Origin: Gammaproteobacteria bacterium
GTDB taxonomy: Bacteria; Pseudomonadota; Gammaproteobacteria; Steroidobacterales; Steroidobacteraceae
Direction of reading: 5' to 3'
Length of the DNA: 64,000 bases
NCBI GenBank assembly: GCA_003137095.1
Contig: PLET01000063.1
Coordinates: forward strand, 96,591-160,590
Shown: positions 15,469 through 34,763 of the stretch, one piece after another
How positions within the stretch are numbered: position 1 is the stretch's first letter
Layout of the letters: the number at the start of each line of letters is the position of its first letter
Notes under the pieces: generated by a model
What the model was told of the DNA's origin: nothing
The model's database searches: none
The model's input: only the letters and a program-made list of their open reading frames with translations
Program-made: the position numbers and the translations under genes

Positions 15469-16569
15469 TCAGACCAGCTCTTTCAGGACGTCGCGCTGAA
15501 ACGGCTTGAGCGCGTCGATGGCGCCGCGGCGCACCAGCAGCGGCCAATCCGGATTCACGATGAGTGAACGCCCGACGGCCACCAGATCGAATTCCCCGCG
15601 CTCCAGGCGCTCGATCAGCTCGTCGATGCCGGTGATGGCGGCGCCCTCGTCGGTGCGGAACGTGGTCGTGAATTCTTCGTTCAACGTCACCGAGCCGACG
15701 GTGATGGTTGGCTTGCCGGTGAGCTTCTTGGTCCAGCCCGCCAGATTCAGGCGGCTTCCCGGGAATTCCGGTTCCCAGAAGCGCCGCGTCGAACAGTGGA
15801 AGATATCCACCCCGGCGGCCGCCAGCGGCTGCAGCAGGGTGTCGAGTTCCTGCGCAGTGCGCGCCAGCTTGGCGGCGTAATCCTGCATCTTCCACTGCGA
15901 GAAGCGCAGCGCGAGCGGAAATTCCGGTCCCACCTGGCGGCGAACCTCGCGGATCACCTCCACCGCAAAGCGGGTGCGAGCCGCCAGATCCCCGCCGTAC
16001 TCGTCGGTGCGCTGATTGGTGCCGTCCCACAGGAACTGGTCGATCAGATAGCCGTGTGCGCCGTGCAGCTCCACCCCATCGAAGCCGAGTTCCTTGGCCG
16101 AGCGGGCGGCCACGCCATAGGCCGCCACCACCGCGGCGATCTCCTCCCGGCTCATGGGCTCGCCGCGCTTCTCGCCGGGCAGCCACAGGCCCGATGGTGA
16201 GGCGGTGACGAAGCCCGCGGGGGCATTCCTCGAGGCGGCGATGCCGGTGTGCCACAGCTGCGGGAAGATCCGGCCGTGCGCGGCGTGCACCGCGCGGGCG
16301 ACCTCACGCCAACCCGCCAGCGCATCCTCGCCGTGGAAGCGCGGCACGTCGGGCATCGAACCGGCGGTGGGATGCGGGATCCAGGTGCCCTCGGTGATCA
16401 GCAATCCGGTGCCGCCTTCGGCGCGGCGGCGGTAGTAGGCCGCGACGTTCGCTCCAGGCACGCCGCCGGGGGACTTCGCGCGCGTCATGGGCGCCATCAC
16501 CAATCGATTGGGCAGCAGCAGATTCCGCAGGCGGAAGGGTTCAAACAAGGCGTGGGTGGAGACCGGCAT
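15469..16569 (-). CDS. NADH:flavin oxidoreductase / old yellow enzyme
   Basis: 366 residues from the ATG at 16569 (MPVSTHALFEPFRLRN); an ATG three codons earlier (16578) is possible. N-terminal LLLPNRLVMAPMTRAKSPGG binds FMN, PQLWHTG near residue 108, FDGVELHGAHGYLIDQFLW near 165, and RTDEYGGD near 190 are hallmarks of the family. The last part carries the GSVTLNEEF and VGRSLIVNPDWP FMN phosphate motifs. These FMN enzymes reduce activated alkenes with NAD(P)H. A TATAAT overlaps the earlier ATG on this strand (16582-16577), which would allow a near-leaderless transcript starting at 16569. It converges with the glycosyltransferase gene with 7 bp between. Confidence 0.9.
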   Translation of the reverse strand: MPVSTHALFEPFRLRNLLLPNRLVMAPMTRAKSPGGVPGANVAAYYRRRAEGGTGLLITEGTWIPHPTAGSMPDVPRFHGEDALAGWREVARAVHAAHGRIFPQLWHTGIAASRNAPAGFVTASPSGLWLPGEKRGEPMSREEIAAVVAAYGVAARSAKELGFDGVELHGAHGYLIDQFLWDGTNQRTDEYGGDLAARTRFAVEVIREVRRQVGPEFPLALRFSQWKMQDYAAKLARTAQELDTLLQPLAAAGVDIFHCSTRRFWEPEFPGSRLNLAGWTKKLTGKPTITVGSVTLNEEFTTTFRTDEGAAITGIDELIERLERGEFDLVAVGRSLIVNPDWPLLVRRGAIDALKPFQRDVLKELV

Positions 16570-32226: not shown

Positions 32227-33114
32227 TCAGAGCGATTGGCGCGCCAATTCGGCCCGGAAGGCGGCTTCCCGCTCGGCCACCCGGTCTTCATATCCCTGCG
32301 GGTCGATCCAGACATTGTGCGCAGGGTCGTCCTGCTGCCGCTTGAGCTTCGCCAGCATGCCGAAATAGGCGCCATGCGCGCCGAGAAAGATGTCACAGGG
32401 CAGTTGATGAAGCAGCTGGAAGGTGTGGGTGAAATCCGCGGCGATGCCGGGATAGGAGGCGGGCTGTCCCGGTTTGTCGACCAGGCGAAATCCCGGATTC
32501 ACATTCCAGCTGCCGACGATGACCACCTGGTAGCTGCGGCCGGCGTCCCTCGCCTTCAAGGTCCAGGTGGTGCATCCGCGGGTATGCCCCGGGGTCTTGT
32601 GGGCGGTGAGCACCGCGCCGCCGAGGCGCACCTCATCGCCGTCGTGCAGCACCCGATCGACCTTGGCGGCGGGGTAGCGGCTGTCGGGATAGAAAAAATC
32701 CTGCGCCCCGCCGCTTTGTACCACCGGCACGTCGCCGTCCATGACCATGTATTTAGCACCGGTCTGCCTGATCAGCTCGGCGCTGCCGGCGACATGATCC
32801 CCATGGGCATGGCTGATCAGCAGGATCCTGACGTCCTTGAATCGAAACCCGAGCGCTTCAATGCTGGCGCGGATCAGGGGCACCGAGGTTTCCAGGCTGG
32901 AGTTGATCAGGATATGGCCCCGCGGCGTCACGATCAGATAAGAGGCCAGATCGCGGCTGCCGACGTAGTACAGATCGTCCGCGATCCGAAACGGCGCGAT
33001 CGGGGTGGTCCAATCCGGCTGCGGTGCGGCCGGCAGCCCGGTGGCCGCCAGCAGCAGCGCCAAGCCGACCCACGACGACCAGCGGCCGCGCGCGTTGCTC
33101 AGGATCGCGTTCAT
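32227..33114 (-). CDS. Subclass B3-like metallo-beta-lactamase-fold hydrolase
   Basis: 295 residues from the ATG at 33114. Signal peptide ends near residue 30 (LLLAATGLPAAP). All zinc ligands of the B3 group are present: HAHGDH near 112-117, His in TPGHTRGCTTW, and His in GAHGAYFGM. YPGIAADFTHTF and DPQGYEDRVAERE also match B3 enzymes. B3 enzymes hydrolyse beta-lactams with two zincs, but many chromosomal homologues are unproven; sequence does not show whether this one does. Cluster context is uninformative. Confidence 0.85.
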   Translation of the reverse strand: MNAILSNARGRWSSWVGLALLLAATGLPAAPQPDWTTPIAPFRIADDLYYVGSRDLASYLIVTPRGHILINSSLETSVPLIRASIEALGFRFKDVRILLISHAHGDHVAGSAELIRQTGAKYMVMDGDVPVVQSGGAQDFFYPDSRYPAAKVDRVLHDGDEVRLGGAVLTAHKTPGHTRGCTTWTLKARDAGRSYQVVIVGSWNVNPGFRLVDKPGQPASYPGIAADFTHTFQLLHQLPCDIFLGAHGAYFGMLAKLKRQQDDPAHNVWIDPQGYEDRVAEREAAFRAELARQSL

Positions 33115-33121
33115 GGTCAGA

Positions 33122-33433
33122 TCATAGCGCGCATCGCGCGCGGCGCGGTAGACACAGCTCCTCGCCGAACGCGACGAATTTCTTCGGGTCGCGGACCCGG
33201 TATTTGCGCCAGAACTTCCACTGCGAACAAAAGCGGCAGGTGAACAGACAGCCGGGGGCGGCCCGTCTGGCGATCTGCAGGGGGTTTGTGCCTGATAGAT
33301 CATGGACGTGATGGCGATGGCCAGCACCACGTCCGGGGCATGACGACGGATGATCTCCCCGAGGTGCACATCGTCGATGTGATTGGTCATCGCATCCGCG
33401 AAGCGCAGGTTGTTCCGGTGCGAAAATACGCAC
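33122..33433 (-). pseudogene. bchE: BchE-type B12-binding radical SAM gene, deleted and frameshifted
   Basis: On the minus strand a GTG start (33433) and VRIFAP is followed, after a frame change, by [20 protein letters not shown] and [18 protein letters not shown], the cobalamin-binding part. Another shift leads to [20 protein letters not shown] and [14 protein letters not shown], the radical SAM CxxxCxxC segment. These are strongly like BchE, the anaerobic Mg-protoporphyrin monomethyl ester cyclase of bacteriochlorophyll synthesis. At least three internal deletions and two frameshifts remove ~80% of the ~550-residue protein, including a skip at [13 protein letters not shown] where intact BchE has ~30 residues. 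Non-functional. Confidence 0.72.
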
Positions 33434-33452: not shown

Positions 33453-34763
33453 TCAGCGGTCGACCAGGCGCGCCGGCATCAGGCTCACGATGAGCACGGC
33501 GGCGACGGTCAGGGTGCCGGCGACCAGGTACAGGCCGGCGGCCAGCGAGTGGCTGCGTGTGATCAACAGGCCGAGCAGCGCCGGACCCACGAATCCGGCA
33601 AGATTGCCGATGGAGTTGATCCAGGCGATGCCGGCGGCGGCGCCGCGGCCGCCGAGGAACGCGGTGGGCAGCGCCCAGAACATGGGCAATGCGGAGATGA
33701 CGCCCGCGGCCGCGAGGCAGAGTCCCAGCATGGACGGGATCAGCCGGTCGATGCTCAGCGCACAGATCCCAAAACCGGCCGCGCCGAGCAGCGCCGGGGC
33801 GCTCACGTGCCAGCGCCGCTCGTGTGTGCGATCCGCGCTGCGGCTGACGAGCAGCATGGCGATGAGGGCGGTTACATAGGGAAGCATCGTCAGAAGCCCG
33901 ACGGCGAGCGGATCGGAGACACCCGAATTGCGGATGATCGTCGGCTGCCAGAACCCGATGGTGTAGGAACCCATGACGATGCCGAACAGGATCAGGCACA
34001 ATAGCCACACGCGGGCGGAGGCGAACGACGCGCGCACCGACCCGATGCGGTGCAGGGCGGCGTCGGCGGCGAGTTCACGCTGCATCGCAGCCTTTCCGGC
34101 CTCATCGAGCCAGGTGGCGCCGTCGATCCGGTCATCCAGATGACGGTGCACCACCACGCCGAGTACCAGCGCCGGCAGCGCCTCGAGGATGAACAGCCAT
34201 TGCCAGCCACCCAATCCGCCCACCCCGCTGTAGAAATGCATGATGGCGCCGGACACGGGACCGCCGATGATGCCCGACAGTGGATTGCCCGACATCAACA
34301 GGGCCGTCATGCGCCCGCGTCGCTGCGCCGGAAACCATTGGGTAAGGTACAGGATCATGCCGGGGAAGAAGCCCGCTTCGGCAATGCCGAGCACGAACCG
34401 GACGACATAGAACCCGGTGGGTGAACTCACCCAGGCCGCGGCCATGGACACAACCGCCCAGCTGATCATGATGCGCGCGATCCAGCGCCGCGCACCGACT
34501 CGATGCAGCAGCAGATTGCTCGGCACCTCGAACAGGAAGTAGCCGATGAAGAACAGACCCGCGCCCAGTCCATACACGGCGTCGCTGAAGTGCAGGGCGT
34601 TCGACATCTGCAGCTTGGCGAAGCCGACATTGACACGGTCCAGATAGGCCGCCACATAGCACGCCAACATCAACGGCATCACCCGCCAGGCGGCGCGCCG
34701 GAACGCGGCATCCGCCACCGAGCGGTCGTCGGGTGCCCTCGGCGTTGGCGCAGTCATCCCCAT
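33453..34763 (-). CDS. MFS transporter, anion:cation symporter (ACS) type
   Basis: 436 residues, twelve predicted helices. CYVAAYLDRVNVGFAKLQM at the first helix and FLFEVPSNLLLHRVGARRWI are signatures of the ACS family (phthalate, tartrate, galactonate and glucarate transporters); RRGRMTALLMSGNPLSGIIG follows in the loop before helix 5. ATG at 34763 or 34757. It probably takes up an organic acid. No catabolic genes adjoin it; it is divergent from the cytochrome gene. Confidence 0.9.
   Translation of the reverse strand: MGMTAPTPRAPDDRSVADAAFRRAAWRVMPLMLACYVAAYLDRVNVGFAKLQMSNALHFSDAVYGLGAGLFFIGYFLFEVPSNLLLHRVGARRWIARIMISWAVVSMAAAWVSSPTGFYVVRFVLGIAEAGFFPGMILYLTQWFPAQRRGRMTALLMSGNPLSGIIGGPVSGAIMHFYSGVGGLGGWQWLFILEALPALVLGVVVHRHLDDRIDGATWLDEAGKAAMQRELAADAALHRIGSVRASFASARVWLLCLILFGIVMGSYTIGFWQPTIIRNSGVSDPLAVGLLTMLPYVTALIAMLLVSRSADRTHERRWHVSAPALLGAAGFGICALSIDRLIPSMLGLCLAAAGVISALPMFWALPTAFLGGRGAAAGIAWINSIGNLAGFVGPALLGLLITRSHSLAAGLYLVAGTLTVAAVLIVSLMPARLVDR

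Follow-up and report, generated by a model that had tools for sequence, protein, structure and literature searches.

A putative dead remnant of bchE in a Steroidobacteraceae genome bin that also carries a photosynthesis gene cluster

In the window, i.e. the whole stretch of 64,000 nucleotides that was analysed, an MFS transporter gene (33453 to 34763, minus strand) and a subclass B3 metallo-beta-lactamase gene (32227 to 33114, minus strand) are separated by 338 bases without an intact known gene. The nearest NCBIfam models of the upstream transporter gene were the D-galactonate transporter and HpaX, both below cut-off, and the downstream lactamase gene matched NF033105 with 314.6 bits (cut-off 240). 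Between these genes, at 33155 to 33411 on the minus strand, lie four remnants of bchE in the order of the intact gene. Piece 1 (33286 to 33411) comprises 42 codons of the cobalamin-binding side, running from NLRFADAM to IYQAQ, and corresponds to about codons 40 to 81 of intact bchE. Piece 2 (33249 to 33281) corresponds to about codons 84 to 94, piece 3 (33176 to 33248) covers the region of the radical SAM motif, and piece 4 (33155 to 33175, VAFGEEL) ends the homology, which stops after GEEL at about intact codon 265. All four are on the minus strand. About 83 of some 500 codons are left in the relic; the codons before about 39, a block of 330 nt, a block of 90 nt, the codons after about 265 and one base are missing. 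A blastn search for BchE-like DNA beyond 33155 to 33412 gave only short matches at chance level (in the leader and in 33115 to 33154), and the BchE searches listed no further high-identity piece of bchE elsewhere in the window's own genome (G000).

For both translated pieces the top NCBIfam model was TIGR02026, the oxygen-independent Mg-protoporphyrin ester cyclase BchE. The cobalamin-side piece matched model positions 38 to 80 with 33.2 bits (E 2.5e-8) and no other NCBIfam model. The radical SAM piece (33155 to 33281, minus strand) matched positions 199 to 229 with 50.8 bits (E 1.1e-13), 33 bits ahead of the runner-up model HpnR with 17.5 bits. Pfam added solely Radical_SAM, in the second piece and below the Pfam cut-off. 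A preliminary description of this DNA had identified a relic of bchE with the cobalamin-side and radical SAM pieces in BchE order. Both statements were confirmed, since neither a best match to another radical SAM family nor an unmatched cobalamin side was found.

Piece 1 was 76% identical over 42 amino acids to the intact sequences L006 and L007, and the radical SAM run was 93% identical over 28 amino acids to L006. Comparison with the intact gene of G096 likewise gave 42 codons at 76% and a run of 28 codons at 93%. The cysteines of the radical SAM motif CX3CX2C are kept in piece 3 (CLFTCRFC). The relic is thus like the intact bchE genes of the family in sequence, in the order of its pieces and in this motif, but differs from them by a frameshift, by the loss of both ends and by the loss of two inner blocks. 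In a separate profile search the pieces reached 46.3 and 29 bits and not the curated TIGR02026 cut-off of 481.35 bits, and by this cut-off the relic classifies as a BchE fragment and not as a working member. It has no single open frame with a full cobalamin-binding domain and radical SAM barrel, and it shows disabling lesions relative to intact relatives, as a pseudogene does. Judged from its sequence, the segment from 33155 to 33411 (minus strand) is a dead remnant of bchE.

The lesions were located by alignment with intact genes, and in all lesion and repeat comparisons the sequences of relatives stand in for the ancestor of the relic. The DNA alignment placed the loss of one base, a frameshift relative to intact bchE, in the zone from 33281 to 33288 (minus strand), near QAQ at the boundary of pieces 1 and 2. 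Pieces 2 to 4 share one frame, from which piece 1 is set apart by the missing base, so that two frames were found and not the three described before. At junction J1 (33249 to 33260, minus strand) an in-frame loss of 330 nt joined AAPGC to the sequence preceding FTCRFCSQW. At junction J2 (33172 to 33184, minus strand) an in-frame loss of 90 nt occurred between two AAGAA(A/G)TTCG direct repeats. The deletion of intervening segments had been proposed for the relic. This holds for the 90-nt loss at KKFV, but the 330-nt loss (AAPGC...ARGCPFTC) had been overlooked.

As described before, RDPKK directly meets FVAFGEEL, and the intact genes carry two KKF sites 90 nt apart at the J2 position. In G096 and G093 these sites have 12 of 13 bases in common, in G079 and G164 10 of 13. 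The chance level was taken from all site pairs 60 to 600 nt apart in G096, G079 and G093. Agreement at at least 10 of 13 bases was reached by 0.045 to 0.084% of pairs overall and by 0.12 to 0.22% of in-frame pairs, and agreement at at least 11 of 13 bases by 0.006 to 0.016%. The DNA therefore supports the repeat-mediated deletion that had been suggested at KKFV. At J1 (offsets 56 and 386 in the G096 alignment) the corresponding site pairs in the intact genes agree at 9 of 12 bases in G096 and in G093, at 8 of 12 in G164 and at 7 of 12 in G079, a likeness that is suggestive at most. Deletions between short direct repeats occur in pseudogenes. The 90-nt loss between two repeats of 10 to 13 nt resembles such deletions; the relic differs in that both of its internal losses are in frame and in that there is little repeat homology around the 330-nt loss. 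Of 27 columns that are invariant among 38 intact rows, two are altered in the relic (P to S and C to G), while any intact row, when omitted in turn as a control, alters none or one.

The sequence VRIFAP had been taken for the N-terminus of BchE, but this match was not significant. Its GTG agrees with four intact starts at 7 to 8 of 12 bases, and a shifted position nearby scores 9. A score of 8 is reached by 0.89% of the minus-strand positions of the window, which gives an expectation of about 0.4 for the 47 leader positions. VRIFAP was consequently discarded as an N-terminus.

Intact BchE above the curated cut-off was present in nine of the 217 genomes of the family Steroidobacteraceae, two of them (G078 and G079) in the genus of the window. 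Seven of the nine holders scored 771 to 832 bits, and all seven also have pufLM and AcsF. The BchE-like proteins of G177 and G180 scored 519 to 530 bits, above the cut-off, in genomes without pufLM; these two (L013 and L014) warn against the use of the BchE cut-off as a marker of phototrophy. Two kinds of bchE occur in the family. The type-A intact copies (those of G096, G093 and G079 and one of G164) are 71 to 93% identical to the relic pieces in protein and 74 to 90% in DNA; G164 holds both kinds (L009 and L018), and G078, G105 and G139 hold the other kind. Of 83 aligned residues the relic has 70 in common with G093, 69 with G096, 68 with G079 and 65 with one G164 copy, and 43 to 62 with the remaining 34 intact sequences used. 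In a tree of 39 rows the relic grouped with G093, G079 and G096 (support 100/95), and the G164 copy joined at 95/81. The position of the relic within the group of G093, G079 and G096 was weak (90/50), and the nearest sequence was that of G093, which belongs to another genus. Apart from the two intact genes, no bchE relic was listed in the other 22 genomes of the genus, where further matches were 23 to 32% identical (E 0.01). Three of 72,556 plasmid records matched piece 1, at 56 to 71%.

The neighbours of intact bchE are acetyl-CoA synthetase, HDOD and histidine kinase genes in G079, a nitrile hydratase gene in G093, and MFS, V4R and amine oxidase genes in G164. In G105, the contig of bchE also carries pufLM, at a distance of about 10 kb, and bchB and acsF, at about 22 to 34 kb, so the gene is not uniformly located outside the photosynthesis cluster. 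The search for an intact copy in relatives, which the preliminary description had recommended, thus succeeded in the same genus (G078 and G079), but none of the bchE loci compared had the neighbours of the relic. Since these neighbours adjoin bchE in no locus compared, decay in place is unsupported by synteny. When 12 window genes around the relic were compared with the loci, they matched only the lactamase loci, apart from one weak ABC-type match. No close orthologue of the flanking MFS gene was found in the other 22 genomes of the genus, the best being 44% identical. Relatives of the B3 metallo-beta-lactamase (54 to 72%) occurred in three of these 22 genomes (G064, G070 and G071). No BchE was found in these three at 1e-40, and superfamily matches of 23 to 30% appeared only at 0.01.

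The window was also searched with 229 ORFs, which came from stretches with photosynthesis clusters or bchE in relatives and in the window's own genome. No second photosynthesis relic was found at E 1e-4, and the photosynthesis matches in the window came from the bchE ORFs alone. Three other matches were obtained at E 1e-4: one of 26% that falls within the flanking transporter gene, a cupin, and a weak match at 15469 to 16311. The earlier remark that no other photosynthesis gene is seen is therefore correct for the window, but not for the genome, in which pufLM, pufC, bchZ, puhE, bchL, bchH, bchB and acsF are carried by the contigs C31 and C69.

A search for reaction-centre proteins revealed at least one in 38 of the 217 family genomes. 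G000 has two, encoded at C31:2082-3752 and assigned by NCBIfam to PufL and PufM. Contig C31 contains bchZ, pufL, pufM, pufC and puhE, a group of three radical SAM genes and one UbiA-type gene, and the last part of acsF; BchZ, PufL, PufM, PufC and PuhE were above their profile cut-offs. Contig C69 starts with the front of acsF and carries bchL, bchH and bchB, all identified by profile and above cut-off; further ORFs on it, which we take by position and appearance to be puhC, puhB, puhA, lhaA, bchM, bchN, bchF, bchG and bchP, accompany them. Against the AcsF model TIGR02029 the C69 part scored 243.9 bits (cut-off 192.5) and the C31 part 101 bits, below the cut-off. The two parts lie at contig ends and cover model positions 2 to 165 on C69 and 231 to 335 on C31, with the whole gene on neither contig. 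Because about 65 codons lie in the gap between the two contigs, the integrity of acsF in G000 is an assumption. AcsF was found in 19 of the 217 family genomes, including all seven holders of a high-scoring BchE. With pufL, pufM and bacteriochlorophyll genes, the G000 bin contains a photosynthesis gene cluster, and, allowing for the assembly gap in acsF, its gene content amounts to an anoxygenic photosystem together with the oxygen-dependent cyclase. The photosynthesis genes in the same bin speak against the view of the strain as no more than a former phototroph.

The radical SAM genes on C31 form a cassette between pufC and puhE (L134, 5219 to 9271). It consists of three such genes, mutually 36 to 38% identical, and a UbiA-family prenyltransferase gene. 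The models nearest to the radical SAM genes were AhbD, NirJ and mycofactocin-maturase, all below cut-off. None of the other loci compared, whether of photosynthesis genes or of bchE, matched the cassette at 1e-8, and the GC content of the cassette was 0.59 versus 0.62.

The photosynthesis genes and the relic are on separate contigs (C31, C69 and C80) of an assembly of 129 contigs with an estimated contamination of 4.06%. The tetranucleotide correlation (r) with the mean of long G000 stretches was 0.944 to 0.960 for C69 and 0.941 for C31 (0.921 without the cassette). Other sampled contigs of G000 gave 0.727 to 0.980, the mean itself having taken in the atypical contig C110 (0.727). The photosynthesis stretches of G078, G079 and G199 correlated with the G000 mean at 0.65 to 0.84. 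As the values were 0.927 for that of G067, 0.902 for that of G205 and even 0.960 for a stretch of housekeeping genes from G067, composition alone is not decisive. A stretch of C110 (G000:C110:1-20000, L187) with a GC content of 0.536 and an r of 0.727 appears to be foreign, mobile or mis-binned DNA.

Protein identities were also compared. For a gene of C69 that lies outside the cluster and is not a photosynthesis gene, the genus gave matches at E 1e-60 in G071, G073 and G075 alone (four of 23 genomes with G000), at 78 to 83% identity. The ABC-F protein of the window was 89 to 90% identical to those of the same three genomes and 81 to 86% identical to those of the phototrophs G067, G078 and G079. 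The flank gene favours a location of the cluster on the chromosome of the relic. PufM on C31 was 85 to 87% identical to the proteins of G067, G078 and G079, versus 68 to 81% for the other loci compared. PufL on C31 was 86% identical to that of G078 and equally to that of G199 from another genus, and 83 to 84% identical to those of G079 and G067. No pufLM was found in the genomes nearest by ABC-F (G073, G060, G074, G072 and G059), of which only G073 has the C69 flank gene. Either a gain by this strain or repeated loss is therefore needed, and the photosynthesis cluster may have arrived recently or have been binned wrongly. On balance, C31 and C69 are probably native to G000.

We consider it fairly likely that the relic was left by a phototroph which once had both cyclases, kept AcsF in its photosynthesis gene cluster and left BchE to decay. 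The ancestor would have been an anoxygenic phototroph carrying both enzymes, as seven relatives do today. The oxygen-dependent AcsF would have been retained within the cluster while bchE decayed, with 90 nt in all likelihood removed by deletion between short direct repeats and 330 nt perhaps removed in the same way. Bacteriochlorophyll would then be predicted to be made solely when oxygen is present. It had been proposed that an ancestor or a transferred segment carried anaerobic bacteriochlorophyll synthesis, and as regards bchE this proposal stands. An arrival of the bchE fragment by horizontal transfer, without its ever having been functional in the lineage, is unlikely. The frameshift and the two in-frame internal losses in otherwise well-kept sequence argue for the decay of a once-intact gene, and the genome has pufLM and AcsF, as do all seven high-scoring bchE holders. 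A transferred fragment would nevertheless agree with the lack of synteny, with an MFS neighbour that finds at best 44% identity in the other 22 genomes of the genus, and with the nearest position of the relic to G093 rather than to G079 of the same genus, weakly supported as this is (90/50).

It is still less probable that the strain is now non-phototrophic with a photosynthesis fossil and that contamination brought the photosynthesis contigs into the bin. The contamination estimate of 4.06%, the nearest ABC-F relatives without pufLM, a PufL that is not genus-specific and a composition test with which a near relative is still compatible would all fit a foreign origin of these contigs. However, the C69 flank gene has its closest matches in G071, G073 and G075, whose ABC-F proteins place them near the window, and the PufM of C31 is closer to G067, G078 and G079 than to the other loci. 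We give very little credence to a functional mini-protein encoded by the GTG open frame of 103 amino acids at 33122 to 33433. Its frame is open and CX3CX2C survives in it, but it departs from the BchE frame over its first half, little is left of the radical SAM barrel and the cobalamin domain, and no similarly truncated copy was listed elsewhere in searches with BchE as the query. Descent of the relic from a BchE-like B12 radical SAM enzyme of non-phototrophs was rejected on identity and is the most improbable origin. Such enzymes do exist in G177 and G180, but their identity to the relic is 46% over 26 amino acids and 48% over 25 amino acids, respectively, compared with 93% over 28 amino acids for the BchE of G079 and G096, and the next model follows at a distance of 33 bits.

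The favoured course, retention of AcsF with decay of bchE, was compared with published cases. According to the accessible part of PMC4944227, which relies here on Boldareva-Nuianzina et al. 2013, every aerobic anoxygenic phototroph studied has acsF, and most purple nonsulfur bacteria have both acsF and bchE. Excerpts of three further papers describe bchE outside the cluster in some Myxococcota, with loss in surface-ocean members inferred from absence (PMC10576062), one clade with acsF and without bchE (PMC10008586), and a proposed loss of bchE in cyanobacteria (PMC4500134). As far as these four sources go, G000 resembles their acsF-only phototrophs in having acsF in the cluster and no working bchE, but bchE is absent there or its loss is inferred, whereas the decaying gene is still visible in G000. 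In the available text of PMC5374385, bchE of Rhodoferax antarcticus lies outside the photosynthesis cluster beside other genes. The searched part of the relic's contig likewise shows no photosynthesis gene, as in this species and in the Myxococcota of PMC10576062; their copies are described there as genes, however, and that of G000 is a relic. In the open-licence literature, as far as its text was accessible and with subscription papers outside the search, no report of a broken bchE or of a bchE pseudogene was found. The trend towards loss is already known, and the visible wreck is a new instance of it, not a new kind. In it, oxygen-independent pigment synthesis would be caught in the middle of its loss while the genome retains the oxygen-dependent enzyme, and the relic could serve as a marker for the time at which, and the number of times that, the family's phototrophs committed themselves to oxygen.

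Gaps in the known enzymes also became apparent in the sister genus g23 (G183 to G206; L154 to L162 and L213 to L216), in which 20 genomes have pufL or pufM. No BchE was found in these 20 at E 1e-40; at 0.001 the best matches were 24 to 29% identical, and two genomes were unmatched. AcsF at 1e-10 and BchB above cut-off were each absent in 19 of the 20, all draft genomes, with G199 as the exception in both cases. As 19 of the 20 puf-bearing genomes show neither a known cyclase nor BchB, an unrecognised cyclase and reductase or the uptake of a precursor comes into question for this genus. Tentatively, and with considerable doubt, the relic might be regarded as one frame of a family-wide turnover of the ring-E cyclase, in which some members have both cyclases, G000 is losing BchE, and g23 has an unrecognised third cyclase together with another protochlorophyllide reductase, or takes up a late precursor. 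BchH was above cut-off in 16 of the 20 genomes; G206 has a fragment below cut-off, and none was found in G183, G192 and G204 at 1e-30. In the four g23 genomes examined (G205, G197, G201 and G187) BchH lies apart from the puf genes, and its neighbours there are presumably bchI and bchD, judging by their appearance. In the clusters of G205 and G192, the place after puhE that acsF occupies in relatives is taken by a puhC-like gene.
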